Of a stretch of DNA of 64,000 bases, positions 18,878-49,875 are shown piece after piece. The translations under genes were made by a program, and so were the position numbers. The notes beneath the pieces were generated by a model. That model was not told the origin of the DNA and searched no databases. It saw only the letters and a program-made list of their open reading frames with translations. Source of the stretch: Alkalihalobacillus sp. AL-G (GTDB lineage Bacteria > Bacillota > Bacilli > Bacillales > Fictibacillaceae); NCBI RefSeq assembly GCF_030643805.1, contig NZ_CP094656.1, positions 372,001-436,000 on the forward strand, written 5' to 3'. The stretch's first letter is position 1. Each line of letters begins with the position of its first letter.

Positions 18878-18975
18878 ATGCGTGGTCGATATATCGTACT
18901 CCGTGGTTGATATAACAAATTTCGTGGTCGATATATCGGGTTCCGTGGTTGATATATCGAGTCAAATGGTTGAAT
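18878..18975 (+). repeat. tandem array, 21-bp period (CGTGGTYGATATATCG)
   Basis: CGTGG starts at 18881, 18902, 18923 and 18944, exactly 21 bases apart, with a decayed fifth unit (ATGGTTGAA) in phase at 18965. The leader ATGCGTGG is shared with the arrays at 41411 and 49759. No open frame crosses it. Confidence 0.85.
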
Positions 18976-19115
18976 TACTGTTTATGAACTGTAATATTCA
19001 CGTTTAAACGTATAAAAACCTTCGATTGGTCGTAGGTTTCATCTCCTAATTTAAGCAAAAATGACTTTAGGGAAGGTTTTACTCACAAAATTGAATGTTT
19101 TAAGTAGTCAAACTG

Positions 19116-19144
19116 AAAAGCAGCCTGATTTTCAGGCTACCTTT
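19116..19144 (-). terminator. terminator of the 65-residue membrane gene
   Basis: On the minus strand AGCCTGA and TCAGGCT enclose AAA and are followed by GCTTTTC. The stem begins at the end of the minus-strand gene. Confidence 0.6.
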
Positions 19145-19334
19145 TCAGCTTCATGGGAGTGAGTCTTCCCGCTACAAAAGAAGCAAATGGAACCCCCATT
19201 ACTATCGCAAAACAAATATGTACAAGGTCAGACATGATGCTCCATGGTACAAACAGGGTAAATACCAACTTAATCAGTTGAAGGAACCCGTAAAAGGAGA
19301 GTAGGAATATTAGAAAATATAAGATACGATACAT
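19137..19334 (-). CDS. small membrane protein, 65 residues
   Basis: Starts MYRILYFLIFLLSFYGFLQL and has two hydrophobic helices (about 3-27 and 33-55), ending in a basic tail (RLTPMKLKR). The ATG at 19334 is chosen because GGATGGGGGA lies before it; an in-frame ATG seven codons upstream is possible. It lies between pbuG and the rRNA unit, on the opposite strand to both, and has a terminator. I do not recognise the family. Size and topology are like several uncharacterised bacillar membrane proteins. Confidence 0.65.
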   Translation of the reverse strand: MYRILYFLIFLLSFYGFLQLIKLVFTLFVPWSIMSDLVHICFAIVMGVPFASFVAGRLTPMKLKR

Positions 19335-19463
19335 AGGTTGTCCCCCATCCTTCATGCAACTATATTACTATGAAACTATTCATCAAAAATCTACAAAATC
19401 CTTTCTATTATGTTAAGAAGGTAGAAAAATCCTGCCTTTCTATATATTTTTTGAAAGATAGTG

Positions 19464-19492
19464 TTGACCGATATTTTATAAGGTGTTATATT
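19464..19492 (+). promoter_or_regulatory. rRNA promoter
   Basis: TTGACC, a 17-bp spacer and TATATT lie 140 bases before the 16S gene. A second TTGACA at 19506-19511 has no good -10 partner. The leader then holds the typical CTTTGAAAACTGAACAAA segment. Confidence 0.7.
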
Positions 19493-19537
19493 AATAAACG
19501 TCGCTGTTGACAAAACAGTTGCACATGAAGCTCTTTG

Positions 19538-19553
19538 AAAACTGAACAAAAGC
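19538..19553 (+). other. 16S processing stem, 5' arm
   Basis: AAAACTGAACAAAAGC is the exact complement of GCTTTTGTTCAGTTTT at 21217-21232. The pair would bracket the 16S gene in a long RNA stem of the kind cut by RNase III. Confidence 0.65.
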
Positions 19554-19631
19554 CAAGCGTGAAAATGGGTCTTTTTATTAAGAACCCTAATCAATTTCGA
19601 TTTACATTTAATGAGCAAATCAAACTTCAAC

Positions 19632-21189
<1,558 letters not shown>

Positions 21190-21381
21190 AGTCCTTTTAG
21201 GACATACACGTCTTGAGCTTTTGTTCAGTTTTGAATGAGCTTTATTCAATAGAAGTGCTTTTGCACCTGCGTCTGTAAGCAATGCTTTGAAGGGGGCTTC
21301 CTCGGCGCATGGCAGCAAGGAGTTTTTCGAGTAGTTGCCATGTTCAGTTTTGAATGAGCTTTTTATTAAAAAGATTTGTTT

Positions 21382-21458
<77 letters not shown>

Positions 21459-21481
21459 TTTACATTACAACCAAATATTTC

Positions 21482-21557
21482 GGGGCCTTAGCTCAGCTGG
21501 GAGAGCGCCTGCCTTGCACGCAGGAGGTCAGCGGTTCGATCCCGCTAGGCTCCACCA
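21482..21557 (+). tRNA. tRNA-Ala (TGC)
   Basis: 76 nt with encoded CCA. The acceptor GGGGCCT pairs with AGGCTCC (one G-U), the anticodon loop is TTTGCAC-like with anticodon TGC (CCTTGCACG), and the T arm is GGTTCGATCCC. It follows tRNA-Ile by 23 bases. Confidence 0.95.
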
Positions 21558-21559
21558 TT

Positions 21560-21590
21560 AACCTATTAACATCTGTTGGTAGGCTTTTTT
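21560..21590 (+). terminator. terminator directly after tRNA-Ala
   Basis: AACCTATTAACA pairs with TGTTGGTAGGCT (11 of 12 positions, with G-U pairs) around a TC..-type loop and runs into TTTTTT. It ends the rRNA transcription unit three bases after the tRNA. Confidence 0.75.
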
Positions 21591-21651
21591 GTGTTCAAAC
21601 ACATTGTTTTTTAAAGTGGAAGTCCCACCACACGGATAACAGTTTTTGGCA

Positions 21652-21682
21652 TAAAAATGAAGAAACGAGATTAACTCGTTTC
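21652..21682 (-). terminator. terminator of the 58-residue gene
   Basis: On the minus strand GAAACGAG and CTCGTTTC enclose TTAAT and are followed by TTCATTTTTA. Confidence 0.55.
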
Positions 21683-21688
21683 CTCGTA

Positions 21689-21865
21689 TTAGAAATTGGT
21701 ATGGTCGCCGCCGCCGTGTTGGCTATTGTAGTAATCGCTTTTATCTTGTGTGGGTTGGTTTTGTCCTTGATTGACATCGGGTGCCTTCGCTCCATTCTTT
21801 TTATCAAAGTACAAGGCGATCCCAATCACAATACATAATGGAACGAGTAATAGTAACCAAATCAT
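21689..21865 (-). CDS. small single-helix membrane protein, 58 residues
   Basis: Begins MIWLLLLVPLCIVIGIALYF, one membrane helix, followed by a polar Gln/Asn/Gly-rich tail with QHGGGDHTNF at the end. The ribosome site GAGAGGGG lies before the ATG and a terminator follows the stop. I recognise no family. It is divergent from the rRNA unit and runs after the lipoprotein gene at 21898-22344 on the same strand, 32 bases downstream of it, so the two may be co-transcribed. It is shorter than usual gene-calling limits. Confidence 0.65.
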   Translation of the reverse strand: MIWLLLLVPLCIVIGIALYFDKKNGAKAPDVNQGQNQPTQDKSDYYNSQHGGGDHTNF

Positions 21866-21897
21866 AATGGTAACCCCTCTCTTTAATGTGACCTTTT

Positions 21898-22344
21898 TTA
21901 ATCAAATCTGAAGGATTGTGCTAATCTCATGATTTCTTCTTTTTCAAGTGTCGGGGTGTGGAGGGTAAGCATGTAGGAGTGTGTTTCGTCAACTGGATAG
22001 ATGAAGTAAAAGCGTTGGATGACGTCCATGGATTTAATATGCTCGATAACAAATCGTGTTTGCTCATTATGCCAGTCACTCATGATTTGGTCTTGATGCA
22101 GGCCACCTTCAAAATTCGGTATGACATGTTCATTGAAATAGTCTGTACCGATATACGTGAGTGTTCCGACATTTTCCCCATCTTCAATAATTGTCCATTC
22201 ATCCGAATGTTCACCTGCAACGGTCTCATAAGCTTGGTCTCCGATATCCTCAAAAGTAAAAGAACTCGATTGTTGTGAACTTCCACAGGCAGTTAAAATG
22301 AATAGCAACAACACTGAAACTCCTGTTAAGAACGAAGCTTTCAT
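21898..22344 (-). CDS. lipoprotein of unknown function, 148 residues
   Basis: The signal peptide MKASFLTGVSVLLLFILTAC ends in lipobox LTAC (Cys20), followed by a Ser/Gln linker (GSSQQSSS) and a globular region of about 120 residues with alternating strands (NVGTLTYIGTDYF, RFYFIYPVDETHSYMLTLH). GGAGGTG precedes the ATG. It is likely anchored to the outer face of the membrane. I recognise no domain. The 58-residue gene follows it closely. Confidence 0.8.
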   Translation of the reverse strand: MKASFLTGVSVLLLFILTACGSSQQSSSFTFEDIGDQAYETVAGEHSDEWTIIEDGENVGTLTYIGTDYFNEHVIPNFEGGLHQDQIMSDWHNEQTRFVIEHIKSMDVIQRFYFIYPVDETHSYMLTLHTPTLEKEEIMRLAQSFRFD

Positions 22345-22546
22345 TGCACACCTCCAAAACGTTTTCTTCTACTATATATTTTATTATACCAAATATCGGT
22401 AATTCATGGTGTTGAGAATGAAATTCCTCTTTAAAATTGGGAATTTACCCCCTTGAAAATTCTTAATATTTCCATTCTTTTTCTTTCGATTAGTTTCGTG
22501 CTATGCTAGGAACAATCAAAATTTAAAAGCAGCCTTGGAGGGTTGG

Positions 22547-23080
22547 ATGGCCATGCTTGAAAACAGTTTTTCATTAATTGCAATCATACTGATCATCAAT
22601 GTTGTTTATGTATCGTTTTTTACGGTCCGAATGATCTTAACACTGAAAGGACAACGCTATCTTGCAGCGATTACCAGTGTCTTTGAGGTTGTTGTTTATG
22701 TTATCGGATTGGGCATTGTATTGGATAACCTGAATGAGATCCAGAACTTGATTGCCTATGCGATTGGTTATGGTCTTGGTGTTATCGTTGGAATGAAAAT
22801 TGAGGAAAAGCTTGCTTTAGGCTATATTACCGTTAATGTAATCACGAAGGAGTTTGAATCCGATATTCCAAATTCATTGCGGAATCGTGGTTACGGTGTT
22901 ACACATTGGCTTGCAGACGGCCGTGAAGGTCCGCGATTGATGATGGAAATCTTAACCTCTAGAAAATCTGAACATGATCTATACAATAATGTAAAAGCAC
23001 TTGATCCAAAAGCGTTCATGATTTCCCATGAACCAAAAGCCTTTTACGGCGGGTTCTGGGTCAAAGCTATTCGGAGGTAG
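22547..23080 (+). CDS. yebE: DUF2179/UPF0316 membrane protein YebE
   Basis: About 177 residues. Three N-terminal membrane helices (to about residue 85: [55 protein letters not shown]) are followed by a cytoplasmic DUF2179 domain ([20 protein letters not shown], ending [19 protein letters not shown]). B. subtilis YebE has the same layout and position before yebG and purE. TTGGAGGG lies 5 bases before ATG 22547 and 11 before ATG 22553, so either may be used. The function is unknown. Confidence 0.88.
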
Positions 23081-23086
23081 GGCTAG

Positions 23087-23287
23087 ATGGACAAGAAGCC
23101 GAAGAAAAAGAAATTTGAAGTATTGGAAAACGAAGAGATTGGCGATTGCCTCAAGCGAATGAGGCAGGAAGGATATGTGCCTGTCCGAAGAATGGAAGAG
23201 CCAGTCTTTCAGGAAGTGAAGCAAAATGGTAAGAAAGAGGTAGAACATCTACGGCAAAGGATCATATTTGAAGGCGAATTACAGTAA
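23087..23287 (+). CDS. yebG: NETI-motif protein YebG
   Basis: A 66-residue, highly charged protein: Lys-rich start (MDKKPKKKKFEVLENEEIGD) and CLKRMRQEGYVPVRRMEEPV, typical of the NETI family found before purE in bacilli. GGAGGTAG lies before the ATG, which is only 6 bases after the yebE stop, so the two are one unit. The function is unknown. Its end is 4 bases before the PurBox of the purine operon. Confidence 0.88.
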   Translation: MDKKPKKKKFEVLENEEIGDCLKRMRQEGYVPVRRMEEPVFQEVKQNGKKEVEHLRQRIIFEGELQ

Positions 23288-23291
23288 AACA

Positions 23292-23325
23292 CGAACATTA
23301 GTAACGAAAATATTTACAATGTTCG
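23292..23325 (+). promoter_or_regulatory. PurBox (PurR operator) of the purine operon
   Basis: Perfect inverted arms CGAACATT and AATGTTCG are spaced by 18 bases. The site sits upstream of the -35 box, as at the B. subtilis pur operon, where PurR represses when PRPP is low. Confidence 0.8.
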
Positions 23326-23333
23326 ATTTTTCG

Positions 23334-23363
23334 TTGACACAGGCGTTTTTCCGTTGTTACAAT
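23334..23363 (+). promoter_or_regulatory. sigma-A promoter of the purine operon
   Basis: Consensus TTGACA, an 18-bp spacer and TACAAT, followed by the riboswitch leader. Confidence 0.75.
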
Positions 23364-23380
23364 ATAAAAGAAACAGCAAT

Positions 23381-23450
23381 CCTCATATAATCTTGGGAAT
23401 ATGGCCCATAAGTTTCTACCTGACAACCGTAAAATTGTCGGACTATGAGG
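23381..23450 (+). promoter_or_regulatory. guanine riboswitch of the purine operon
   Basis: P1 pairs CCTCATA with TATGAGG. The core segments are TAATCTTGGGAATATGGCCC, AAGTTTCTACC and ACCGTAAA, and the specificity base is C in GGACTATG. An antiterminator can form between GGACTATGAGGGAAAG (3' part of the aptamer) and CTTTCTCATGTCC at 23515-23527 in the terminator loop, with small bulges. Ligand binding should free the terminator. Confidence 0.93.
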
Positions 23451-23497
23451 GAAAGCGATCGGTTTGCTCACTTAAGAAAGTATTTGATTGGAGCGAT

Positions 23498-23562
23498 GCC
23501 CGGGATTTATTGTGCTTTCTCATGTCCAAGGAGAGAGGTATATATAAATCCTGGGCTATTTT
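23498..23562 (+). terminator. riboswitch-controlled terminator before purE
   Basis: GCCCGGGATTTAT pairs with ATAAATCCTGGGC (one G-U) and is followed by TATTTTTAT. The 33-base loop contains the antiterminator arm. Confidence 0.85.
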
Positions 23563-23625
23563 TATGAAGTAAATTAAATAAAAAATGGAATTTAACACAT
23601 AAACGACGAAAGGCTTGGTGGAGAG

Positions 23626-24114
23626 ATGGAACCGTTAGTTGGCGTAATCATGGGAAGTACGTCGGACTGGGAGACGATGAGACATACGTGTGATGTGTTG
23701 GATGAGTTAGAAATCCCGTATGAAAAAAAGGTTGTATCCGCACACCGTACTCCAGATCTTATGTTTGAATATGCAGAACAAGCAAGAGGACGAGGCATAA
23801 TGGTGATTGTTGCCGGAGCGGGAGGAGCAGCGCACTTACCTGGAATGGTAGCTGCTAAGACGACATTGCCTGTCATCGGTGTTCCGGTTCAATCGAAAGC
23901 GTTAAACGGACTAGACTCCTTACTTTCAATCGTGCAAATGCCTGGCGGAGTTCCGGTGGCGACGGTTGCGATCGGAAAAGCAGGAGCAACGAACGCGGGA
24001 TTACTCGCAGCACAAATTTTGGGAACGACTATGGAAAAGGTTGCCTCCGCTCTCCAAAAACGTCAAGAAGAACGTCGACAAAAAGTAATCGAAAGCAGTG
24101 GTGACTTGAAATGA
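23626..24114 (+). CDS. purE: N5-carboxyaminoimidazole ribonucleotide mutase
   Basis: 162 residues, class I Pur[10 protein letters not shown] (phosphate loop), SAHRTPD with the catalytic His, [16 protein letters not shown] and the C-terminal [10 protein letters not shown]. It moves the carboxyl group of N5-CAIR to give CAIR, the sixth step of purine synthesis. It is first in the operon; its end overlaps purK by ATGA, so the mutase and synthetase are coupled. GGTGGAGAG precedes the ATG. Full length for the family. Confidence 0.96.
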
Positions 24115-25262
24115 CGAAACCAATTGTACCCCCTCAAACGATCGGAATTTTAGGAGGCGGACAGCTTGGGCGGATGATGGCGATTGCGGCCAAAGAAATG
24201 GGCTTTAAAATTGCAACCGTGGATCCAACGAAAGGCTCACCTTGTGGATTGCTGGCGGACATTGAAATTGTTGGCGATTATGCGAGTGAGGAAGCGCGAA
24301 ATAAACTTGCTGAAGTAAGCGACGTCATCACGTATGAGTTTGAAAATGTCGATCTTGATACAGCACGCTGGCTTGAAGAAAACCACCACCTTCCACAAGG
24401 GAGCAACTTGTTGAAAGTGACACAGAACCGTGCAGAGGAAAAGGCGACGCTTGAGGCGATTGGCGTGAAAGTGGCACCTTATGAACTCGTTTCAAACGAG
24501 GCACAACTCAATACGGCACTTAGGAAAATCGGTTATCCGTCGATTTTAAAAACAATAAGAGGTGGCTATGATGGGAAAGGACAAGTCGTCCTTGATACTC
24601 CGGAACATATCGAACTCGCTCATCAATTGATTGAAGGCGGGACACCATGTGTTTTAGAGGAAAAGATTTCGTTTATCAAAGAAATCTCAGTCATTGTTGC
24701 ACGGAATGTATATGGAGACGTCGAGACCTTCCCTGTCGCAGAGAACATTCACCGCGATAGCATTTTATATGAATCGGTTGTACCGGCTAGAATTTCAGAT
24801 GAAAGTATTGAAAAGGCACGATCCCTTGCGATCCAAATTGCTGATGGATTAGATCTGGTTGGGACGTTAGCCGTGGAAATGTTCTTAACGGACGACTCGG
24901 GTATTTACATTAACGAACTTGCGCCGAGGCCGCACAATTCAGGACATTATACGATTGAAGGCTGCGTATTCTCTCAATTCCAACAACACATTCGAGCGAT
25001 TTGCGGGTGGAAGCTTGGAAAACCGACTTTAGTAAAGCCGAGCGTAATGGTCAACCTATTGGGAGAAGAAGCGCATCACATATTAAACGTTGCACCACTG
25101 TTCGATAATGTCCATCTCCACCTTTACGAAAAAAAAGAAGCGAAGAAAAAGCGGAAGATGGGGCATTTTACGATCATCGACGATTCATTGAATGCTGCAG
25201 TGGAAAAGGCTGAAACCATCGCGAAGAACCTACAAAAACATATCCTGGAGGAAGTTAAATGA
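24111..25262 (+). CDS. purK: N5-carboxyaminoimidazole ribonucleotide synthetase
   Basis: 383-residue ATP-grasp enzyme that carboxylates AIR with ATP and bicarbonate to N5-CAIR for PurE. The N-terminal Rossmann-like loop reads [13 protein letters not shown]. The grasp domain holds [15 protein letters not shown], and [17 protein letters not shown] and [18 protein letters not shown] carry metal and substrate contacts. The protein ends with a basic stretch ([16 protein letters not shown]). The end overlaps purB by ATGA. Confidence 0.96.
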
Positions 25263-26554
25263 TTGAACGTTATACACGACCTGAAATGCGAGAAATTTGG
25301 ACTGAGGAAAACAAATTCAAAGCTTGGCTTGAGGTAGAAATCCTTGCTTGTGAAGCGTGGGCTGAGCTTGGGGACATTCCGAAACAGGATGTCGTGAAGC
25401 TCCGTGAAAAGGCTTCGTTTGACGTAAATCGGATCCATGAAATCGAAGAACAAACTCGCCATGATGTCGTTGCTTTTACAAGAGCAGTGTCGGAAACGTT
25501 AGGTGAGGAACGAAAATGGGTCCATTACGGGCTGACGTCCACAGATGTCGTGGATACGGCTCTTTCACATTTGATCCATCAAGCGAACGATATTTTACTA
25601 GAGGACATTGAACGGTTTGTAGAGGTTTTAAAGGAAAAAGCACAGGAGCATAAATATACGGTGATGATGGGACGTACGCACGGTGTTCATGCCGAGCCGA
25701 CGACCTTCGGATTGAAGATTGCCCTCTGGTATGAGGAAATGAAGCGAAATCTTGAGCGATTTAAACAGGCGGCAGAAGGAATACGTTACGGAAAGCTTTC
25801 GGGAGCTGTCGGTACGTTCGCGAACATCCCGCCGTTTGTCGAGCAATATGTATGTGAACAGCTTGGCCTTAACCGTGCACCGATCTCAACACAAACGTTA
25901 CAGCGTGATCGCCATGCACATTACATGTCGACGTTGGCCTTGATCGCAACTTCAATTGAAAAGTTCGCAACGGAAATTCGCGGACTTCAGAAAAGCGAAA
26001 CACGTGAGGTCGAAGAGTTTTTCGCAAAGGGTCAAAAAGGTTCATCCGCTATGCCGCATAAGCGTAATCCGGTCGGATCGGAAAACATGACAGGGTTAGC
26101 ACGAGTCATTCGTGGACATATGGTGACATCGATGGAAAACGTAGCGCTATGGCATGAGCGTGATATTTCACACTCTTCAGCAGAACGGATCATCATTCCA
26201 GACAGCACGAGCCTACTGAATTACATGCTGAACAGGTTCTCGAACATCGTGAAAAATTTGACGGTCTATCCGGAAAACATGAAGCGGAACATGTCCCGCA
26301 CATACGGGTTGATTTACTCGCAGCGCGTGCTGTTATCACTTGTTGATAAAGGCTTAAGTCGTGAGGAAGCATATGACCTCGTCCAGCCGAAAACCATGGA
26401 AGCATGGGAAAAGGGCATCCAGTTCAGAGAATTAGTCGAAGCGGAGCCACGCATCACAGAAATGCTGACAGCAGATGAAATCGATGATTGCTTTGATTAC
26501 AACCATCACATGAAGGAAGTTGACAACCTTTTTAAACGTGTTGGATTAGAATAA
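25259..26554 (+). CDS. purB: adenylosuccinate lyase
   Basis: 431 residues of the fumarase/aspartase superfamily. It splits SAICAR to AICAR plus fumarate, and adenylosuccinate to AMP. Visible residues are [11 protein letters not shown], the His in [14 protein letters not shown], and the flexible signature loop [17 protein letters not shown] with the catalytic Ser. Length is the same as in B. subtilis (431). The start overlaps the purK stop. It is placed within the purine operon, as is usual for bacilli. Confidence 0.97.
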
Positions 26555-26584
26555 CGACTTGATCGATCTGAAGGAGGAGCATAA

Positions 26585-27289
26585 ATGGAGAAACGAGCAC
26601 TGCTTTATGAGGGGAAGGCGAAACACATATACGAAACGTCTGATCCGGAGGTTGTTTGGATCGAATACAAGGATGAAGCAACCGCATTCAACGGTGAGAA
26701 GAAGTCAACCATCGATGGCAAAGGGAAGCTGAATAACGTCATTTCATCCCTATTGTTTGAAGTGCTTCACGATAAAGGGATTGAGTCACATTTTATAAAA
26801 AAGCTTTCGGACACTGAGCAGCTGGTGAAAAATGTTCAGATCATTCCGCTTGAAGTGGTCGTCCGGAACGTCGCAGCAGGCTCACTCGCCAAACGCCTTG
26901 GCATGGAAGAAGGGGAAGTGCTTCCGGAGCCAATCGTTGAGTTTTACTACAAAAATGATGATCTCGGCGATCCACTGTTGACGAAGGACCACATCCGTAT
27001 CCTTGGACTCGTCGAGGAGACAGAACTTTCCTTGCTGCGACAGAAGGGATTAGCTGTGAATGACGTATTGGTGCCTTATTTTAAAGCACTCAATATCGAT
27101 CTGATCGACTTTAAGCTCGAATTCGGAATTGATTCGGATGGTGAAGTCCTTCTGGCTGATGAAATTTCACCAGATACATGCCGCCTGTGGGATTCTGAAA
27201 CGAAGCAAAAGCTTGATAAAGACGTCTTTCGAAGGAATCTTGGAAGTTTGACTGAGACGTACGGGCAGTTGTTAGAGAGATTGACGTAA
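26585..27289 (+). CDS. purC: SAICAR synthetase
   Basis: 234 residues. It joins CAIR and aspartate using ATP. The N-terminal ATP-binding part reads LLYEGKAKHIYETSD with FNGEKKSTIDGKG; the two PurC signatures are LEVVVRNVAAGSLAKRLG and LIDFKLEFG, then DEISPDTCRLWD near the C terminus. GAAGGAGGA lies 6 bases before the ATG. After this gene the operon has a 309-bp gap with a short repeat array before purS, whereas B. subtilis has no such gap. Confidence 0.96.
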   Translation: MEKRALLYEGKAKHIYETSDPEVVWIEYKDEATAFNGEKKSTIDGKGKLNNVISSLLFEVLHDKGIESHFIKKLSDTEQLVKNVQIIPLEVVVRNVAAGSLAKRLGMEEGEVLPEPIVEFYYKNDDLGDPLLTKDHIRILGLVEETELSLLRQKGLAVNDVLVPYFKALNIDLIDFKLEFGIDSDGEVLLADEISPDTCRLWDSETKQKLDKDVFRRNLGSLTETYGQLLERLT

Positions 27290-27338
27290 AGCAGTCTCGA
27301 AGAAGCGTTTCTGGCAAGATCGATTGGTAGATTTAACA

Positions 27339-27395
27339 GTTTCGCAGTTAATTTTTGATCTTCGCAGATAATTTCTGAATTTCGCAATTTTTGCT
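27339..27395 (+). repeat. tandem array, 20-bp period (TTCGCAGWTAAT), between purC and purS
   Basis: TTCGCAGTTA, TTCGCAGATA and TTCGCAATTT begin at 27341, 27361 and 27381, exactly 20 apart. Three units are visible. The surrounding gap 27290-27598 holds no open frame or terminator I can support; the purS ribosome site GGGGAGGA lies at its end. Confidence 0.7.
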
Positions 27396-27598
27396 ATCGA
27401 ATGAAGTCTCATTTTACACGGAAAGCAGTGATGTTGACGCGACAATTGGAAGATTTGATGTGGAAATCGATTTTTTCACTCGAAACGGAACACATTTGAC
27501 CGGGATTTGAAAAAAGAACCAAGCTGGCGCGAGATTGAGGCGGCTAACGAAAACAGCCTTTACAAAAAAACGATTATTTCGGGGAGGACATATCGATT

Positions 27599-27853
27599 AT
27601 GTATAACGTAAAAGTGTTTGTCACATTAAAGGAAAGCGTGTTGGATCCACAGGGGGGAGCGGTTAAAGACTCACTCCACCGCCTGTCTTATCAATCCGTT
27701 GAAGATGTTCGAATCGGAAAATATATCGAGCTGACGATCAAAAAAGAAGACGGAGATATCGAGCAGCAGGTTCGTGAAATTTGCGAAAAACTGTTGGCGA
27801 ACACGGTCATCGAAGATTTTACGTATCAAATCGAGGAGGTCGTCTCCCAGTGA
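27599..27853 (+). CDS. purS: FGAM synthase small subunit PurS
   Basis: 84 residues, full length. PurS bridges PurL and PurQ and channels ammonia in the three-part FGAM synthase of Gram-positive bacteria. It has the typical start [18 protein letters not shown] and [15 protein letters not shown], ending [11 protein letters not shown]. The stop overlaps the purQ GTG start by two bases (GTGA). Confidence 0.94.
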
Positions 27854-28533
27854 AATTTGCAGTCGTCGTTTTTCCAGGATCGAACTGTGACGTAGATATG
27901 TATCACGCGATCAAGGATGAGCTTGGTGAAGGAGTCGAATATGTGTGGCACAACGATTCCGATTTAAGCGGATTTGATGGGATTCTGATTCCAGGCGGAT
28001 TTTCTTACGGAGATTATTTACGAAGCGGTTCAATCGCTCGTTTTTCCAACATCATGGACTCAATCTATGAAGCTAATAAACAAGGGAAACCGATTCTCGG
28101 AGTTTGTAACGGATTTCAGATTTTGCTCGAAGCAGGATTGTTACCGGGTGCGATGCAACGGAACGAAAAACTTAAGTTCATCTGTCGCCACGTGGATCTT
28201 GTCGTTGAAAATAAGGATTCGATGTTCACGAGTGCGTATGAAATCGGTGAGGTCATCTCAGTACCGGTGGCACATGGTGAAGGAAACTATTATTGCGATG
28301 AAGCAACGTATGAAAAGCTGCTAGAAAACAATCAAGTCGCATTCCGTTACAAGCAAAACCTGAATGGCTCAAGTCACCAGATTGCGGGTATTACAAATGA
28401 GAGAGGTAACGTATTAGGGATGATGCCTCACCCGGAACGTGCTGTTGATGCGTTACTCGGAAGTGCGGATGGACTTAAACTTTTTAAATCGATCGTCAAA
28501 AGCTGGAGGGAAGCACATGTTGTATCCTCATGA
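27850..28533 (+). CDS. purQ: FGAM synthase glutaminase subunit PurQ
   Basis: 227 residues, same as B. subtilis PurQ. A class I glutamine amidotransferase that supplies ammonia to PurL. The start motif is [17 protein letters not shown], the nucleophile Cys is in [14 protein letters not shown], and the His/Glu pair is in MPHPERAVD. The GTG at 27850 overlaps the purS stop; the longer frame from 27781 runs inside purS and is not used. It ends 17 bases into purL. Confidence 0.95.
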
Positions 28534-32190: not shown

Positions 32191-32300
32191 GGGAGTTAGA
32201 CACGTATTTCGGGAGTTAGACATGTATTTTCGAAGTTAGACACGTATTTCGGGAGTTAGACATGTATTTTTAGAGTTAGACATGTATTTCGGGAATTAGC
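32191..32300 (+). repeat. tandem array, 20-bp period (GGGAGTTAGACAYGTATTTC), between purF and purM
   Basis: Units start at 32191, 32211, 32231, 32251, 32271 and 32291, exactly 20 bases apart; the last is diverged (GGGAATTAGC). Units alternate CACGTATTTC and CATGTATTTT. Part of the transcribed purine operon. Confidence 0.9.
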
Positions 32301-37615: not shown

Positions 37616-37640
37616 AATAATCTCCTCCTTTTATTTGTTC

Positions 37641-39524: not shown

Positions 39525-39536
39525 ACTATAAAAGAG

Positions 39537-39850: not shown

Positions 39851-39933
39851 TATAGATTTATGGAATTGTATCATAGGGTTGTTTGAGGGGAAGTTACAAC
39901 ATGAATTTTAGGGAAACTAGGGGTGTAAACAAT

Positions 39934-40983
39934 ATGAAAAAAGGGTTGTTTGTTACAGTTATCATAGCGCTATTTCTTATGCTTGCTGCTTGTGGGCCGA
40001 AGGAAACGACGAAAGACATTGATAAGCCCGATTCGGATGAGCCAAAAACGGAAGTACCGAAAGAAGAAGATGAAGCACCTAAGGAGCCTGAATTTGCTTA
40101 CACGTTCCCGCTGACAGGAAAGGGAACGAATGATGCATTGAATGACCGTGTTGTCGGAGTAATGGTCAACAACGCTCCAAAGGCTCGACCTCAATCTGGT
40201 TTGCATAAAGCCGATGTCGTTTACGAAGTACTTGCAGAAGGCCGGATTACGAGATTCCTTGCCTTATTTCAAAGTGAAAAGCCTGAAATCATCGGTCCAG
40301 TCCGTAGTGCACGTGACTACTATATTCGTCTAAGCAATGGGTTTGATGCAATTTATGTTCATCACGGCTGGAGTCCTTCAGCAAAGAATATGCTCGTCGG
40401 GGGCAATATTGATTCATTGAATGGTCTTTATTATGATGGAACTCTGTTTAAGCGTGCATCGTTTCGACGGGCTCCGCATAATTCCTATATAACTTATGAA
40501 AATATTATAAAAGAATCGAAGAAACAGAAGTATGAGCTTAAGCAGGAGATTCCTTCACTGCCTTTTTTAACAGAGGAAGAAGTGAAAGCGGTCGAAGGTG
40601 ACCCTGCGAATACGATCACGATTACGTATGGTAAGTATTATGAGGTACAATATAAATATCAGCCTGAAAAAGGAATGTACATCCGATTTTCCGACGATAT
40701 ACAAACGATCGATCGTGAAACAGAGATACCGATTGAATTATCCAATATATTCATCGCAGAAGCGACTCATCAGGTGATCGATAGTGCCGGTCGTCGACGA
40801 GTTGACCTCGAAAGCGGCGGGAAGGCTTTGTTATTCCAGCAAGGAAAAGTTCAGGTGGTCAAATGGGTCAATGAAAACGGACGCATTGTTCCTGCTGCAG
40901 AAGGAAAGAAAGCTGCTTTTGCGCCAGGTAAAACGTGGATAAATATAGTCCCTGCAATTGATCAGGATGTTAAATATAATTAA
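39934..40983 (+). CDS. yerB: DUF3048 lipoprotein YerB
   Basis: 349 residues. The signal peptide MKKGLFVTVIIALFLMLAAC ends in lipobox LAAC, followed by a charged linker (KPDSDEPKTEVPKEEDEAPK) and a DUF3048 region: VMVNNAPKARPQSGLHKADV, RITRFLALFQSEKPEIIGPV, RSARDYYIRLSNGFDAIYVH. B. subtilis YerB has the same place and build. The ATG at 39934 is preferred because it begins the signal peptide and follows TAGGGGTG; the frame is open to 39883. The function is unknown; it is expected at the outer membrane face. Confidence 0.9.
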   Translation: MKKGLFVTVIIALFLMLAACGPKETTKDIDKPDSDEPKTEVPKEEDEAPKEPEFAYTFPLTGKGTNDALNDRVVGVMVNNAPKARPQSGLHKADVVYEVLAEGRITRFLALFQSEKPEIIGPVRSARDYYIRLSNGFDAIYVHHGWSPSAKNMLVGGNIDSLNGLYYDGTLFKRASFRRAPHNSYITYENIIKESKKQKYELKQEIPSLPFLTEEEVKAVEGDPANTITITYGKYYEVQYKYQPEKGMYIRFSDDIQTIDRETEIPIELSNIFIAEATHQVIDSAGRRRVDLESGGKALLFQQGKVQVVKWVNENGRIVPAAEGKKAAFAPGKTWINIVPAIDQDVKYN

Positions 40984-41008
40984 TCGCAATTGAAGAGGAG
41001 GGAAAACG

Positions 41009-41302
41009 ATGCAAATCGATAAGCTAAGAGGAAGAACACTGGATCAACTATTTGACGCAATATTATCGTTGAAAGATCGCGAAGAATGCTACCAGTTTTT
41101 TGATGACCTCGCTACGATCAACGAAATACAATCTCTTGCCCAGCGTTTAGAGGTTGCCCGAATGCTTCAGGAAGGCTTTACGTATCATAAAATTGAAGAT
41201 GAAACAGGTGCAAGCACGGCTACGATTTCACGAGTGAAGCGCTGCTTGAACTATGGAAACGATAGCTATCAAATGACATTAGACCGCGTTCATAAAGAGT
41301 AA
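41009..41302 (+). CDS. yerC: TrpR-like DNA-binding protein YerC
   Basis: 97 residues of the YerC/YecD family related to the Trp repressor. The helix-turn-helix is ARMLQEGFTYHKIEDETGAS followed by TATISRVKRCLNYG. GAGGAGGG precedes the ATG, 25 bases after yerB, so the two form a unit. It is likely a small dimeric regulator; its targets are not known. A strong terminator follows the stop. Confidence 0.92.
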   Translation: MQIDKLRGRTLDQLFDAILSLKDREECYQFFDDLATINEIQSLAQRLEVARMLQEGFTYHKIEDETGASTATISRVKRCLNYGNDSYQMTLDRVHKE

Positions 41303-41317
41303 TTACCCAAATGACGA

Positions 41318-41356
41318 AACGCCCACAGCCAGAGATGGCTGCTGGGCGTTTTTTTA
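41318..41356 (+). terminator. intrinsic terminator after yerC
   Basis: AACGCCCACAGCC pairs with GGCTGCTGGGCGTT (one unpaired base) around AGAGAT, followed by seven T. Confidence 0.9.
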
Positions 41357-41410
41357 ATTGGTGAAAAGATTGAAACGCGCTGTCTGACGCAGATCAATGA
41401 CCTTTTTACT

Positions 41411-41490
41411 ATGCGTGGCCGAAATATAAGATTTCGTGGCCGAATTAATCCAATCCGTGGCCGAAATATCATATTCTGTGATTGATTTAA
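41411..41490 (+). repeat. tandem array, 21-bp period (CGTGGCCGAAWTAW)
   Basis: CGTGGCCGAA starts at 41414, 41435 and 41456, exactly 21 apart, with a decayed unit (TGTGATTGAT) in phase at 41477. The preceding GACCTTTTTACTATG is nearly identical to the flank of the array at 49759. Confidence 0.85.
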
Positions 41491-41513
41491 CGTTTGAGGT
41501 TAAGGAGAAGTAA

Positions 41514-41570
41514 ATGAAATCCCCCCAAATGGCGCCCCAATTCTTCTATAAATGGATTTTTCCACCTTAA
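41514..41570 (+). CDS. possible 18-residue peptide
   Basis: MKSPQMAPQFFYKWIFPP is preceded by TAAGGAGA with ideal spacing and lies just after the repeat array, in a 300-bp region before pcrB that is otherwise empty. A start with such a ribosome site can occur by chance. No homology is known to me. Confidence 0.25.
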   Translation: MKSPQMAPQFFYKWIFPP

Positions 41571-41737
41571 TTGCTCTCTATTGATGTGTTTTTATCCGAA
41601 AATAGGACTTATCCCTGTCGTTTTTATTGCAGCAGTTATCTGATTTTAGCATCGAATAACTTTCTATCTTGAATTGATTCCAACCTGCTCCCCAGAATGT
41701 TCCATCAATTTTTCTCATAGGGATAGTCGGGAGTTTG

Positions 41738-41766
41738 TTTTTACCGCCTGCCATTTCTGTTATAAT
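41738..41766 (+). promoter_or_regulatory. candidate promoter of pcrB-pcrA
   Basis: Extended -10 TGTTATAAT with consensus hexamer at 41761-41766. The -35 is weak (TTTTTA at 17 bp). Confidence 0.55.
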
Positions 41767-41798
41767 CCATAAAGGAAGTGTTAATTAGGAGGATTACC

Positions 41799-42485
41799 AT
41801 GTTTGAATATAGAGAATGGAAGCATGTATTCAAGCTTGACCCGAATAAAGAGATCACACCAGAGATGCTTGAAGCGATTTGCGAGTCAGGGACAGATGCC
41901 GTCATCGTTGGAGGAAGTGATGGTGTGACCTTAGAAAATACAATTGACTTACTTTCGAGAATTCGAAAGTATACCGTTCCGTGTGTACTTGAGGTTTCGA
42001 ATACGGAATCGATTACACCGGGATTTGACTATTACTTTGTGCCAAGTGTCTTGAACAGCACGAACCCGGATTGGATAGTCGGACTTCATCATGAAGCAAT
42101 CAAGGAATACGGTGAGCTGATCAACTGGAACGAGCTTGTCGCGGAGGGCTATTGCATCGTCAACAAGGAATCGAAGGCAGCCCAGATTTCCGAGGCCGAT
42201 ACAAATCTTGATAATGAGGATATTCTTGCCTATGCCAGAATGTCGGAGCATATGTTTCGACTGCCGATCTTTTACCTGGAATACAGCGGTACATATGGGG
42301 ATGTGGAGATTGTGAAGGACATCAGCACAGTCTTAGATAAAACCCACTTCTTCTACGGTGGTGGAATTAAAGACGATACGCAAGCACGTGAAATGGCGCA
42401 ATTCGCAGATACGATCGTCGTCGGAAACGTTATCTACGAGGATCTGAACGCCGCAATTCGCACCGTCCGTGTCGTAAAAGGTTAG
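41799..42485 (+). CDS. pcrB: heptaprenylglyceryl phosphate synthase
   Basis: 228 residues, as B. subtilis PcrB. TIM-barrel prenyltransferase that joins heptaprenyl diphosphate to glycerol-1-phosphate, giving an archaeal-type ether lipid precursor. Motifs: [48 protein letters not shown] and [20 protein letters not shown] with the phosphate-binding loop. AGGAGG lies 6 bases before the ATG at 41799. pcrA follows, as in B. subtilis. Confidence 0.95.
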
Positions 42486-42552
42486 ATTGTTTTTTGGGAC
42501 AAATTAAGATAGACTCAACACAAGAACATACGTTTGCTTAGGTGGTGGAAAC

Positions 42553-44784
42553 ATGCAACAAATTGTAGATCGATTAATGAACGGATTGAACCCCGAACAG
42601 AAAAAGGCCGTCAAACATACGGAAGGACCACTCTTGATCATGGCCGGTGCCGGAAGTGGGAAGACTCGCGTTCTAACACACAGGATTGCCTATCTTCTCG
42701 TCGAAAAAGGAGTTGCCCCGTGGAACATCCTTGCGATCACTTTTACGAACAAGGCCTCAAGAGAAATGCAATCAAGAGTAGCAGCAATTACCGGTCCTGC
42801 TGCAGATAACATTTGGATTTCAACGTTCCACTCAATGTGTGTAAGGATTTTACGTCGGGATTCGGACAGGATTGGAATCAACCGGAACTTCACGATTCTT
42901 GATGCCACGGACCAACTATCAGTAATTAAACAGGCGCTGAAGGATTTGAACCTCGACACGAAAAAATTCGATCCGAGAAGCATACTTGGAATCATCAGCT
43001 CAGCCAAAAACGAATTGAAAACAGCCGCCCAGTTTCAAAAAACAGCTTCTGGTTTATTTGAAGAGGTTGCAGCCGATGTGTACGAGATTTACGAAAAACA
43101 GCTTCGTAAAAACCATGCACTCGATTTTGATGACCTGATCATGTCGACGATCAAGTTGTTTGAGCGGGTGCCGGAAGTTCTTGAACATTACCAGCGAAAA
43201 TTTCAATACATTCATGTCGATGAGTACCAAGATACGAACCGAGCTCAATACGTGCTCGTCAATCTGTTAGCCGATCGATTCCGCAACCTCTGTGTTGTCG
43301 GGGATTCGGACCAGTCCATCTACAAATGGCGTGGTGCAGATATCGCAAATATTCTATCGTTTGAACAAGACTATTCTGACGCTGAAGTGATTTTACTTGA
43401 GCAAAATTATCGTTCCACAAAACGGATTCTTCAGGCGGCAAATGAAGTGATTCAGAACAACACAGGCCGCAAGCCGAAGAACCTTTGGACAGAAAATACC
43501 GACGGACAGAACATCCATTACTATCAGGGTGATAATGAGCATTCAGAAAGCTATTTTGTCGTCGGAAAAATCAAGGATATGATCCAAAGCGGTTCCCGAA
43601 AGCCGTCTCAAATTGCAATTCTTTACCGAACGAACGCCCAGTCTCGTGTCATGGAGGAAGCGCTCGTCAAATCGAACATTACGTACACGATCGTTGGAGG
43701 CACAAAGTTCTATGACCGTAAAGAGATCAAGGACATTCTCGCGTATCTTCGCTTGATTGCGAACCCGGATGACGATATTAGCTTAAGTCGGATAATCAAC
43801 GTTCCAAGGCGAGGAATTGGCGCCTCTACTTTAGATAAAATTGTCCAGTACGCCGCAGATCATGACCTGTCGTTAATGGATGCCATTGGTGAGATTGAAC
43901 AAATTGGATTAAGTGCCCGGTTTGTCAACTCACTATCTGAATTCCGGAACCTGCTCATGAACTGGGCGAAAATGCAGGAATACCTTTCTGTGACTGAGCT
44001 TACCGAGGAGGTTCTCGATAAGACCGGCTATAAGGATATGTTGAAAAATGAAAAATCGATTGAAGCACAGAGCCGTCTCGAAAACCTAGATGAATTTTTA
44101 ACCGTTACACAGGAATTTGAAAAACGTAATGACGATAAGAGCCTCGTCGCCTTTTTGACCGACCTCGCATTGGTTGCAGATATCGATAAGATGGATGAGG
44201 ATGAAGAGGAAAACAAGAAAAAAGACGGTGTCGTATTGATGACGCTCCATTCCGCAAAAGGGCTTGAATTTCCTGTCGTCTTTCTAATGGGGCTTGAAGA
44301 GGGAATCTTTCCGCACAGTCGCTCCCTTTTTGAAGAGGATGAAATGGAAGAGGAACGCCGCCTCGCATACGTTGGAATCACGCGAGCGGAGGAAGAGCTT
44401 TATTTGACGAATGCAAGAATGCGAACATTATATGGTAAAACAAATACGAACGCACCATCACGATTCATTAATGAGATTCCAGATGAGCTTGTGGAATCAC
44501 TTAGTGAAGAACAAAAAACCGTGCCATGGATGAAAACATCAGGGGCAGGGAACCCAACGAGCCCACAACAACGTCGAACTTCACACAGAATTACCCCTGC
44601 AAAACCGGGTAGTGAAACACTGGATTGGCGTGTTGGAGATAAAGCGAAGCACGGGAAATGGGGCGTCGGAACTGTTGTCAGCACAAAAGGCGAGGGTGAC
44701 TCGCTAGAGCTTGATATCGCCTTTCCACAACCGACTGGCATCAAACGGTTGTTGGCGAAGTTCGCCCCGATTGAAAAAGCTTAA
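42553..44784 (+). CDS. pcrA: ATP-dependent DNA helicase PcrA
   Basis: 743-residue UvrD/Rep-type superfamily 1A helicase, essential in bacilli for replication, repair and conflict resolution. Walker A is [20 protein letters not shown] (Lys37), motif II is VDEYQDTN, motif [20 protein letters not shown], motif [14 protein letters not shown], and motif [20 protein letters not shown]. The C-terminal Tudor-like segment ([20 protein letters not shown]) that binds RNA polymerase is intact. It begins 67 bases after pcrB. Confidence 0.97.
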
Positions 44785-44785
44785 A

Positions 44786-44913
44786 AGAGAGGTTGTTTAA
44801 AAAGACCGGAGGCTCACAGGATGTGCAGTCAGTTCGACGTTATCACAGGACGTGATGGGTTTAGTCGAACTTCATTTTTGGCGGCTGTTTTGATCCTCCT
44901 TTTTGAACTCGTA
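44786..44913 (+). repeat. MITE-like interspersed repeat, copy B
   Basis: GAGAGGTTGTTTAAAAAGAC at the left and CCTCCTTTTTGAACTCGTAC at the right form imperfect terminal inverted repeats. The interior GGCTCACAGGATGTGCAGTC followed by AGTTCGACGTT matches copy A at about 39731-39765. It lies between pcrA and ligA. Confidence 0.7.
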
Positions 44914-44924
44914 CTAAAATGTAA

Positions 44925-46952
<2,028 letters not shown>

Positions 46953-46970
46953 GGAGTGTGCGTTAAGGGG

Positions 46971-48170
46971 ATGTATAAAAAGCTATTAGCCATTGTTTGT
47001 TCATCGCTGATCCTGTTGTCTGGTTGTCTTCCGTTAGACAATCTGAAGCGGAACGAGGTTGAGAAGGAAGATAGTAGTGAAAATAAAAATGAAAAAGCAA
47101 TACCAATTCCGAATGTCAATTCTCAAGAGGATTACTATAAATCATTAAAAAACTATGAACCAGGGGTTGCCCGTGGTGAAATTAGTTATGGAGTCGATAA
47201 CCGGATCGATGTCGATGAAGTCGTAACCGGCCTGATGCGTTTATCAAAGGACACGTTTTCAATAGATGATTATTACTTCCAGGAAGGGCAATACATTCAA
47301 AAGGACACCATTCGCAACTGGCTTGGTCGATCTAGCGAAAAGGACGGAGAATCCAGTTCAGCGTTTCTGCAAAAAGGGCTGAACCCCGCCATAAATGAAA
47401 AAGCATATAAGAACGCTGATGTTGATAAAAGGAAAGAAATGCTGAAGAACAACCCGAAAATGCTCTCCTATATTGTCGAGCAGAACTACTTGAAGGATAG
47501 CGGAGACAACAGCGTAAAGCTCGGTGGAATCTCAATCGCTCTTTCGTTTAACTCAACGTATTATTACACGGTAACGGATAAGCAAGGGTTGCTTCATAGA
47601 GGAGAAAAGAACCTTGATAACAGCAAGGTGAAGGAATTTGCCTATAAGACCGGTCAGGAAGTTGTAAATCGGCTGCGGCAACACCCTGAGCTACAGGATG
47701 TACCGATTGTTGTTGGATTGTTCATGGAAGAGGAGCATGGTGCGGTCGTACCAGGGAACTACTTTGCCACGTCAGTCGTTAAAGCTGGGCAAACTTCCGT
47801 TGATTGGGAAAAGGTGAACGAAGACTATTACTTTTTCCCATCGGATCGGGCAGAGGAGGATCACAGAGAGGATCATGCTGTGTTCACCCAGTTCCAAGCG
47901 GAAATTACAGAGTACTTCCCGAACTACATCGGGGTCATCGGAAAAGCATTGTACCGAAACGATAAGATTGCGAAAATGACGATCGAAATTCCAATGCAAT
48001 TCAAAGGAAAAGCAGAGGTCATCTCATTTACGCAATATGTAAACTACCTTGTGAAGCAATACTATCCAGACGAGACCGTCGAAGTAAACATCAAGTCCTC
48101 GATTGATAAAATTGAAAGTCTGATCATCTCAGACCCGACCAAGGAAGACTCGATGGTTCATATTTATTAA
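46971..48170 (+). CDS. camS: CamS-family sex pheromone lipoprotein (YerH)
   Basis: 399 residues. Signal peptide MYKKLLAIVCSSLILLSGC with lipobox LSGC (Cys19), then a charged linker and the CamS domain (GLMRLSKDTFSIDDYYFQEG, NYLKDSGDNSVKLGGISIAL, VVGLFMEEEHGAVVPGNYFA). In enterococci the signal peptide of CamS is the source of a peptide pheromone; whether that happens here is unknown. The ATG at 46971 begins a proper signal peptide, 18 bases after ligA; the AAGGAG site overlaps the ligA end. Same order as B. subtilis ligA-yerH. Confidence 0.9.
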   Translation: MYKKLLAIVCSSLILLSGCLPLDNLKRNEVEKEDSSENKNEKAIPIPNVNSQEDYYKSLKNYEPGVARGEISYGVDNRIDVDEVVTGLMRLSKDTFSIDDYYFQEGQYIQKDTIRNWLGRSSEKDGESSSAFLQKGLNPAINEKAYKNADVDKRKEMLKNNPKMLSYIVEQNYLKDSGDNSVKLGGISIALSFNSTYYYTVTDKQGLLHRGEKNLDNSKVKEFAYKTGQEVVNRLRQHPELQDVPIVVGLFMEEEHGAVVPGNYFATSVVKAGQTSVDWEKVNEDYYFFPSDRAEEDHREDHAVFTQFQAEITEYFPNYIGVIGKALYRNDKIAKMTIEIPMQFKGKAEVISFTQYVNYLVKQYYPDETVEVNIKSSIDKIESLIISDPTKEDSMVHIY

Positions 48171-48240
48171 TTGATTTGTAAAATCAGGGGGTGGCTCCGT
48201 TCTAATCTGTACCCCTTGTAAAGGACAATTTTAAAAAAGG

Positions 48241-49171
48241 CTAGGCTGCGTTAAGAAGATGATCTCTGTATTGAACGGGGGTCATCTTTTTCATATTCCA
48301 TTGGTATCTATAGGAGTTGTAGTATTTAATGGCAGTTTTTACTTCCCGTTTAAGATCTTTCAGTGTTTTACAGGATTTTATTTCAGCTAAATCTTTGAAA
48401 TGACCAAAAAAGGATTCCTGTGGGGCGTTGTCCCAACAATTCCCCCTTCTGGACATGGACTGGCCCAGTCGATGTTTCTTCACCAACTTTTGATATACAG
48501 GGCTGGTATAATGACTCCCTTGATCAGAATGGATGTAGGCTCCTTTAGCCAGTTTAACCTTCCTATTCTTCTTTAACTTCTTAAGCGTGTCCATAGCGAT
48601 GTCGAGCGTAATTCGATCCGAAACATTATGGGCCAATACTTCATTGGTAGAGGCATCTATAATGGTTGATAAATAAGCCCTTTCCCTTTCCCGAAGTAGA
48701 GATATGTGATGTCTGTAAGCAGCACCTTATAAGGTACTTCCTGTTTGAACTCTCTGTTAAGCTGGTTCGAAACGACTTTGTGCTCCTGGGTGGCTTTCAT
48801 AATACGCTTGTAAGGATTCGCTCTCCGGATAGGACATACAATGCCATACTTGTTCATGACTCTCCCGATTCTTTTAAGGTTATAGACAATATTAAATTGA
48901 CCTGCCAGTATCATTTTAATTTGGCGGGCTCCTTTTTTACGGTTCTTAAAGTGAAAGGCTTTGAGAATAACATCCCGGACAACTTCATCCTTTTTCTCTT
49001 TTTCCCTTCTTCGCTTTACTTGTTTCGCTGAAAAATAGTTATAGTAGCCTTGACGAGATACGCCTGCAGATTTACAAAGGTAAGTGATCATGTTTTTTAA
49101 CTTATATTTCTCAATGATGTATCGAATGAGGACGAACTTCTGATCAGCTGATAAGATCAGTTCTTTTTCTT
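48241..49171 (-). pseudogene. IS3-family transposase OrfB, frameshifted
   Basis: OrfB carries the DDE integrase domain. The upstream part (to about 48657) has the HTH_21 region (KSAGVSRQGYYNYFSAKQ) and the first catalytic Asp in KVLLTDITYLYFGKGKG. It then stops (IYQPL), while the next frame continues without gap (AYLSTIIDASTNEVLAHN) with the second Asp in HSDQGSHYTS and the Glu in NCWDNAPQESFFGHFKDL. One indel in the run GGGAAAGGGAAAGGG explains the break. Coding likely starts in the -1 frame of orfA around AAAGAAAAAGA, the usual IS3 programmed shift. Confidence 0.85.
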
Positions 49172-49576
49172 TAGCCCCCTTTCGGCGAACTTTATCTTTT
49201 TTAGCAATTCGTTCTCTGCTTTCAATAAATTATTTTCCGCCTCTAACCTTGCATATTTTTCTTCATTGGAAAGTTCTCTTTTCCTTGGTCTTCCTGATTG
49301 TCCTCTTCTTGCATCCTGAAGTCCCAGTGCTCCATTTTTACGATAGGCTTTCCCCCACCTTTCAGCAGAACATTTAATACGTCTAGTTCCAATAATCTCT
49401 GTATCAAACCCGTACTCTTCAAAAATCTCTCTAGAGAATTTCCCACGTTCCTTTTGAACAATAAACAGCTGCTTGAATTCATCAGTATAGGTGATGGCTT
49501 TTGAAGTAACGGACTTAACATAAGGATTTTTTGATAATAGTTCGATCTCTTTTTTTGTGAAGCATTTTTTACTCAT
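49157..49576 (-). CDS. IS3-family transposase OrfA
   Basis: 139 residues. Helix-turn-helix DNA-binding region (YTDEFKQLFIVQKERGKFSR, then REIFEEYGFDTEIIGTRRIK), a basic linker (RRGQSGRPRKRELSNEEKY) and a C-terminal leucine zipper (LEAENNLLKAENELLKKI), as in IS150-type OrfA. The stop is shortly after an A-rich stretch where ribosomes usually slip into orfB. AACACACATG start context is poor for ribosome binding, as often in IS elements. Confidence 0.88.
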   Translation of the reverse strand: MSKKCFTKKEIELLSKNPYVKSVTSKAITYTDEFKQLFIVQKERGKFSREIFEEYGFDTEIIGTRRIKCSAERWGKAYRKNGALGLQDARRGQSGRPRKRELSNEEKYARLEAENNLLKAENELLKKIKFAERGLKKKN

Positions 49577-49758
49577 GTGTGTTCTCCCATCCCATTTTTC
49601 ACTCTAATTGTACACAAAAAGACCCTGCAGAGTAGACCTTTTTTTAATGTGTCTACTCTACAGGGTACAGTTTATTCAGGAGGCACTTCCTTTTTTTGTT
49701 TTACAACGAAAATCAAATTTTTAGTACGATTGCAATGATTATTCAGGACCTTTATACT

Positions 49759-49875
49759 ATGCGTGGCCGAAATATTACGTTCTGTGGCCGAATTAATTCA
49801 ATTCGCGGCCGAAAAATCGGATTCCGTGGCCGAATTAATTCGATTCGTGGCCGAAATAATTTGATTCGGGCTTAA
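49759..49875 (+). repeat. tandem array, 21-bp period (CGTGGCCGAAWTAWT)
   Basis: Units start at 49762, 49783, 49804, 49825 and 49846, exactly 21 bases apart, with a sixth decayed unit (CGGGCTTAAATA) at 49867. Units alternate between CGAAATAT and CGAATTAATT forms. The flank GACCTTTATACTATG matches the array at 41411. Confidence 0.9.

Follow-up and report, generated by a model that had tools for sequence, protein, structure and literature searches.

A dispersed, modular 21-bp repeat element in Alkalihalobacillus sp. AL-G as a possible carrier of phased protein-binding sites

The genome of Alkalihalobacillus sp. AL-G, which belongs to the genus Pseudalkalibacillus, consists of one contig of 4,155,898 bases with dnaA at base 343. 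We analysed a stretch of 64,000 nucleotides of it (the window; positions 372001-436000) that holds three intergenic arrays of tandem 21-bp units. These arrays are real and beyond chance, and the 21-bp family to which they belong is a modular element, dispersed and non-coding. With a probability of roughly 0.5, the arrays would be phased protein-binding sites carried by this element. Sites for a sequence-specific DNA-binding protein would stand in rows on one helix face at an exact 21-bp, or two-turn, step. The arrays would form the core of an element (A-box, a number of units, 3' region) that spread to many copies in the lineage to which this species and Pseudalkalibacillus decolorationis belong, arriving at new intergenic sites by some route, with slippage or recombination altering the number of units. 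After insertion the 3' region would decay, and the unit core (G2, T3, G4, G5, G8, A9 and A13) and its spacing would be kept; the A-box would be kept too, less strictly.

A preliminary description of this DNA had proposed a genome-wide search of the CGTGGYCGA type at 21-bp spacing. Two cores exactly 21 bp apart, with at most two mismatches, gave 74 matches (40 + 34) against 2 (1 + 1) in a reversed control, the expected chance level being about one per strand. Grouped by hand, the matches form at least 32 arrays; isolated matches at 232388 (+), which falls within an open frame of 1031 codons, and at 498124 (-) were left out of the grouping. A sequence-only profile (R1), made from 22 of the 32 arrays and three arrays of P. 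decolorationis, added five further sites in this genome and one weak match. The 38-site set referred to below consists of the 32 arrays and six added sites; it includes 50403 by its A-box match alone and leaves out the weak match 3146546 (+). In a scan free of any phase assumption, 69 of 71 successive core distances below 30 bp equal 21 and two equal 20, the fairer figure being about 37 of 39 because detection of every one of the 32 arrays had required at least one 21-bp pair.

Arrays hold two to seven units, with four or more in 16 of the 32. Units fall into a C-type (GGCCGA then AWTA) and a T-type (GGTCGA or GGTTGA then TATA, often alternating); arrays of two units are mainly C-type and those of at least five mainly T-type. 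The layout of the element is a 20-bp A-box, the units, and a 3' region of about 170 bp in some 14 of the 32 copies. The A-box, TTCAGGDCYTTTTTACTATG, is matched at 14 or more of its 20 positions in 28 arrays. At 3624144 in this genome and at loci L089 and L135, another type of left flank, TCTAAAGTAGGRTK, precedes the first unit in place of the A-box.

Position-specific constraint inside the unit is the strongest new evidence. Divergence was compared over the same 12 elements of this genome, these being 12 of the 14 picked by eye as having a 3' region (3624144 and 969697 were excluded from the A-box alignment). It rises from 0.050 at the core positions (2-5, 8, 9, 12 and 13) through 0.202 for the A-box, 0.322 for the first two units, 0.456 for the 3' region and 0.597 for the unit spacer positions 15-19 to 0.704 for the upstream flank. 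Pairwise gap events number 0 in A-box and units versus 223 in the 3' region (6.0 per 100 substitutions), which upholds the preliminary claim that phase is kept while the letters drift. Among 91 units, the last of each array excluded, diversity is zero at positions 2, 8 and 13, 0.04 at positions 4, 5, 9 and 20, and 0.68-0.72 at positions 16-17; in all 123 units, the last included, positions 2, 4, 8, 9 and 13 lie at 0.06-0.09 and position 5 reaches 0.21. The short word kept in all repeats is GTGG..GA...A, of which the invariant position 13 was unconstrained in the paired-core search pattern. Constraint at fixed unit positions is what phased protein sites would give. Since slippage that homogenises a minisatellite would take the spacer with the core, we take the unequal divergence to indicate selection on core and step, and we infer that it reflects protein binding, probably cooperative, that acts on the DNA.

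Judged by strong matches, the family is common to this genome and P. decolorationis DSM 14890 (G001) and is not shared by the six other genomes among the eight of the genus; in one of these, G002, a single weak profile match is an array of another sequence. Of 20 arrays retrieved from P. decolorationis, 12 were aligned, and eight of these share both sides over several hundred base pairs. Among the other four aligned, L141 and L130 share most of this sequence, L126 the right part only and L142 the left part only; this left part contains a terminator-like inverted repeat. These element copies look recent. Two of the 20 arrays occupy sites of arrays in our genome (3918066 and 3931313), as judged by matches of both neighbours or of the adjoining gene; 3436827 matches L138 or L139, which are apparently paralogues. 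Sequence of this genome was compared around its own arrays and at one site near 93.5 kb, where about 10 bp stand here versus about 548 bp in P. decolorationis at L132. No terminal inverted repeat or target-site duplication was recognised at the element boundaries, which are not clean.

Such dispersal bears on a possible but doubtful alternative, a passive selfish repeat resembling a miniature inverted-repeat transposable element (MITE) with an internal minisatellite, spread from a few masters and by slippage and devoid of host function. It would account for the whole elements dispersed in P. decolorationis, for the L132 difference, for unit numbers that range from two to seven and for array families that differ by species. 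Slippage, however, copies spacer and core together, yet the two differ by 60% and 5%, respectively, in old copies; furthermore, the divergence of the A-box, which is not tandem, is half that of the 3' region, and periods of 20 and 21 bp recur in unrelated families. Selection on phased sites would thus fit better than passive slippage.

Outside the genus, weak profile matches in a sister genus (g4) are 20-bp arrays of other sequence at two sites, in three and five genomes. In a wider locus search, six of nine loci lie outside Pseudalkalibacillus, three of them in Sporosarcina metagenome-assembled genome (MAG) sequence and three in distant organisms resembling chance. The Sporosarcina loci (L085, L087 and L093) have 21-bp units, TGTGGCCGATT..., with a similar core, set within larger tandem repeats of 195 bp.

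In the window itself, direct reading and Tandem Repeats Finder (TRF) agree with the preliminary description on an exact 21-bp period at three places. TRF bounds are 18881-18973, 41414-41469 and 49762-49868, and degenerate final units extend the arrays to about 18985, 41497 and 49887; by our own count they have five, four and six units. As had been noted, all three start with ATGCGTGG, and two share the flank GACCTTTnTACTATG (41397-41413 and 49745-49761). The 18881 array is without this flank and matches the A-box at 9 of 20 positions; neither A-box nor 3' region is recognisable there. The parts are as follows.

18881..18985, + strand: 21-bp array, T-type, five units, the last degenerate, between a permease gene and a 16S rRNA gene
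41394..41413, + strand: A-box TCAATGACCTTTTTACTATG of the second array
41414..41497, + strand: 21-bp array, C-type, four units, the last degenerate, upstream of pcrB-pcrA
41498..41650 (end approximate), + strand: 3' (C) region of the second element
49742..49761, + strand: A-box TTCAGGACCTTTATACTATG of the third array
49762..49887, + strand: 21-bp array, C-type, six units, the last degenerate, upstream of an aldehyde dehydrogenase gene
49888..50060 (end approximate), + strand: 3' (C) region of the third element

Single cores number 26 in the window, versus a shuffle mean of 17, and 4 of 100 shuffles reach 26; single cores thus exceed chance only slightly, and the striking feature is the phasing. 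The 41414 array has a DUF3048 gene and short open reading frames (ORFs) on one side and pcrB-pcrA on the other. The 49762 array is flanked by the aldehyde dehydrogenase gene and by small ORFs on the minus strand, the closest of which has an HTH_Tnp_2 match. This closest ORF spans 49157-49576 (-) of the window, and its match, PF20310, is a transposon-related helix-turn-helix. Three purine riboswitches lie within about 8 kb of the window (15224-15325, 17087-17188 and 23363-23465), the third being separated from the second by the 16S rRNA gene (19633-21183). A Bacillaceae-1 RNA is found on the minus strand at 44813-44880, directly after the pcrA gene.

Two further readings place the function of the units in a transcript. 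The array might be transcribed as a structured or sponge RNA, as Subirana and Messeguer (2021; PMC8161180) suggest for a class of similar repeats; 25 of the 32 arrays are downstream of a gene on the same strand, and 52-nt repeats are transcribed in B. coagulans according to published RNA-seq (PMC8161180; PMC8625621). The consensus fold of A-box and three units, however, has six pairs, none with a two-sided change, at -1.5 kcal/mol; that of the 3' region has zero pairs, and there is no Rfam match at the arrays. Mutual information between unit positions is strong for pairs 10-11, 6-10 and 6-11, which mark the C- and T-subtypes, and pairs 16-19 and 14-16 show 73% and 71% standard pairs. With nothing convincing in either consensus fold, RNA structure was rejected, and the RNA reading as a whole appears quite improbable to us.

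The arrays could alternatively encode short heptad-repeat peptides (MRGRNI...), given that 21 bp equal seven codons, that an ATG directly precedes unit 1 in 21 of the 32 arrays and that in six of these 21 the frame runs through the array without a stop; in the window, the two arrays that share a flank do open frames, though short ones (24 and 38 codons). Conversely, 15 of the 21 are interrupted by an in-frame stop inside the units counted, which for some lies no earlier than the degenerate final unit and is often TGA replacing CGA, and the conserved positions ignore codon positions. Coding was rejected on these grounds and such peptides are hardly credible, so that the earlier statement that none of the arrays is coding extends to the family. 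A clustered regularly interspaced short palindromic repeats (CRISPR) array consists of near-identical repeats split by unique spacers of similar length. Here what varies is a stretch of just some 7 bp within the 21-bp unit itself, and the arrays are, as had been said, not CRISPR-like.

Orientation of the family is strongly biased: 30 of the 32 arrays are co-directional with replication, on the leading strand. The terminus itself was not located in the genome, and the leading or lagging call takes it at mid-chromosome. With the six added sites the count is 35 of 38, or 35 of 39 if the weak match 3146546 is counted. Furthermore, only one of the 38 sites lies in 1.86-3.02 Mb versus 10.6 expected, in an interval chosen after the fact, and three lie in 1.56-2.60 Mb versus 9.5 expected. 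Polarity and avoidance of this kind invite the reading of an origin-to-terminus signal, in which polar sites serving chromosome segregation or nucleoid occlusion would be excluded from the terminus region. We give this only a slender chance, since 25 of the 32 arrays are on the strand of the upstream ORF and gene direction would explain much of the bias, and the terminus is only assumed at mid-chromosome. Of the seven arrays with an opposite upstream ORF, five are nonetheless leading.

Other families tell against such a signal as well. A second family in this genome, GAGTTAGACAYGTATTT (44 matches versus 2 in the control), is of mixed strand: by our own grouping, which excludes one isolated match (848768), three arrays are leading, five lagging and one near the terminus. 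In a family of the relative G003, among the matches listed (103, with 18 in the control), 15 of 28 arrays are leading and seven lie in the middle 28% of the chromosome versus 7.8 expected; these 28 were grouped by hand, single weak matches being dropped save three, with the origin assumed at base 1. Leading-strand polarity and terminus avoidance are thus a trait of the 21-bp family in this genome and not of the class. Arrays that are rare, randomly oriented and variable in spacing, the outcome that the preliminary description had held against itself, are not what the family displays, since it has no fewer than 32 arrays, all but two of these 32 leading, and its spacing is exact; orientation, however, provides no rule for the class. 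A 20-bp array of this second family, GGGAGTTAGACATGTATTTC, which is of the same class but separate from the 21-bp family, occupies 32191..32299 (+) of the window in the intergenic space between purF-like and purM-like genes, with about five copies and a 40-bp super-period; its family is the one with 44 unit matches genome-wide versus 2 in the control.

Several observations weigh against phased protein-binding sites or qualify the evidence for them. No binding protein was found. The A-box is missing in four of the 32 arrays. Collecting arrays by a core pattern biases positions 1-9 towards conservation, and the diversity of position 20 rises from 0.04 without the last units to 0.33 with them. 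Unit 1 may not be the counterpart of unit 1 in another array, which would inflate the spacer divergence, and the 12 elements compared are those whose 3' region can still be aligned. Additionally, the polarity is absent from the two other array families, and the recent copies in P. decolorationis occur in both orientations to genes, the upstream ORF being opposite in 13 of 20 arrays, which speaks against a fixed role after genes. Phased protein-binding sites are supported, in turn, by the other families of the same period in relatives. As to their role, we lean towards a boundary between transcription units or a structuring of the chromosome, because the stop codon of the upstream ORF is within about 200 bp in 23 of the 25 arrays with a same-strand upstream neighbour.

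Blocks of seven genus genomes, 1.2 Mb in total, hold 87 non-redundant intergenic TRF arrays, filtered by length, score and copies. Their periods are 21 in 34 arrays, 20 in 17, 52 in eight and 48 in five, with the rest scattered, and no period from 7 to 19 occurs among the 87. The window genome has further families of 20, 21 and 52 bp; its 52-bp intergenic arrays, near 553734 and 298892, represent the second size class described in Bacillus. pcrB was matched in seven of eight genomes, and in six of these seven an array lies upstream of it. At this site the present genome, G002, G004 and G007 have 21-bp units of four different sequences, G005 has a weak 41-bp array and G003 (L147) a 52-bp array. 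P. decolorationis has no array upstream of pcrB; a weak 21-bp match in it, about 1.2 kb from the site and inside a 582-codon ORF, was not counted.

A joint permutation over 126 shared sites, stratified by length, found 16 co-occupied species pairs versus 6.45 expected (P 0.002), and 12 versus 4.90 (P 0.0075) when the pair G002-G007, which shares a family, is omitted. Pair by pair, a test was possible for 15 of the 21 genome pairs, with G002-G007 as the one pair to reach significance by itself (P 0.0034); summed over pairs, the test gives 16 versus 9.45 (P 0.001; the pairs are not independent). Arrays of 20, 21 or 52 bp and of different sequence would thus occupy the same intergenic sites above length-matched chance (P 0.002-0.0075). 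This is the least secure of our conclusions: it depends on the pcrB site and our own length strata in a modest sample, and the tests miss the 52-bp G003 array at pcrB. Across species, 4.2% of 1059 unit pairs reach 65% identity versus 0.9% when shuffled, family-sharing pairs included, and several units look to share a T-rich start followed by GNNGATAWAT. It is tempting to speculate, though we regard it as unlikely, that array sites are an inherited chromosome feature with replaceable sequence, where some conserved machinery would depend on phased arrays at particular positions and the binding word and its reader protein would co-evolve. If true, this turnover of word and protein would resemble that of eukaryotic centromere satellites. 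Re-use of sites by differing arrays, if upheld in a larger sample, would be a new question that we did not meet in the literature examined.

Among known systems, the BOX element of Streptococcus pneumoniae, whose boxB module measures 45 bp, was compared by description, and its layout of A, tandem B and C recurs here. BOX is modular, A - (B)n - C, with variable tandem middle modules, intergenic and dispersed, and is said to form stem-loops if transcribed (PMC3049150), whereas no conserved structure was found in the 21-bp family. The STAR elements of Staphylococcus are likewise intergenic direct repeats at species-specific loci, with varying copy number and unexplained function; they are GC-rich repeats of 14 bp with spacers of at least 40 bp (PMC3532100), whereas the present family has head-to-tail units of 21 bp. 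MITEs are similarly short, non-coding and dispersed, with terminal inverted repeats and target-site duplications; neither was recognised here, at boundaries that are not clean.

The closest likeness is to the intergenic tandem repeats of 20-21 nt in 176 Bacillus genomes, of constant size, species-specific sequence and unexplained function (Subirana and Messeguer 2021, PMC8161180), and the 21-bp family belongs to this known class. Common to both are the intergenic, non-coding position, the 20-21-nt period, species-specific families with several per genome, a short word kept in every repeat and the presence of 52-nt arrays in the same bacterial group. That study used the program SATFIND; by our own count the window arrays also reach its cut-off of at least four repeats in 800 nt. 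The preliminary description was therefore mistaken in supposing that no such system had been described: that study had already equated the repeat length with two helix turns and suggested a polymerising nucleoid protein or a small RNA. The overall interpretation in the preliminary description stands as regards phase and position constraint and falls as regards the lack of precedent. We saw no treatment of flanking modules, of orientation, of constraint in core versus spacer, of indel rates or of orthologous sites in the main text of PMC8161180, and the literature within our scope, outside which most subscription papers lay, yielded nothing on the 21-bp family itself or on a demonstrated function of the class. 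What is added here is the modular dispersed element, the unequal constraint and the re-use of sites by other arrays. Repeats of 20-21 and 52 nt are common in Bacillaceae and unexplained, and this family provides a tractable case, with a core word, a fixed 21-bp step, an A-box and a short list of loci in two species. The protein-polymerisation idea of Subirana and Messeguer thereby becomes testable, as the question of which protein binds GTGGYYGAWWWA every 21 bp.

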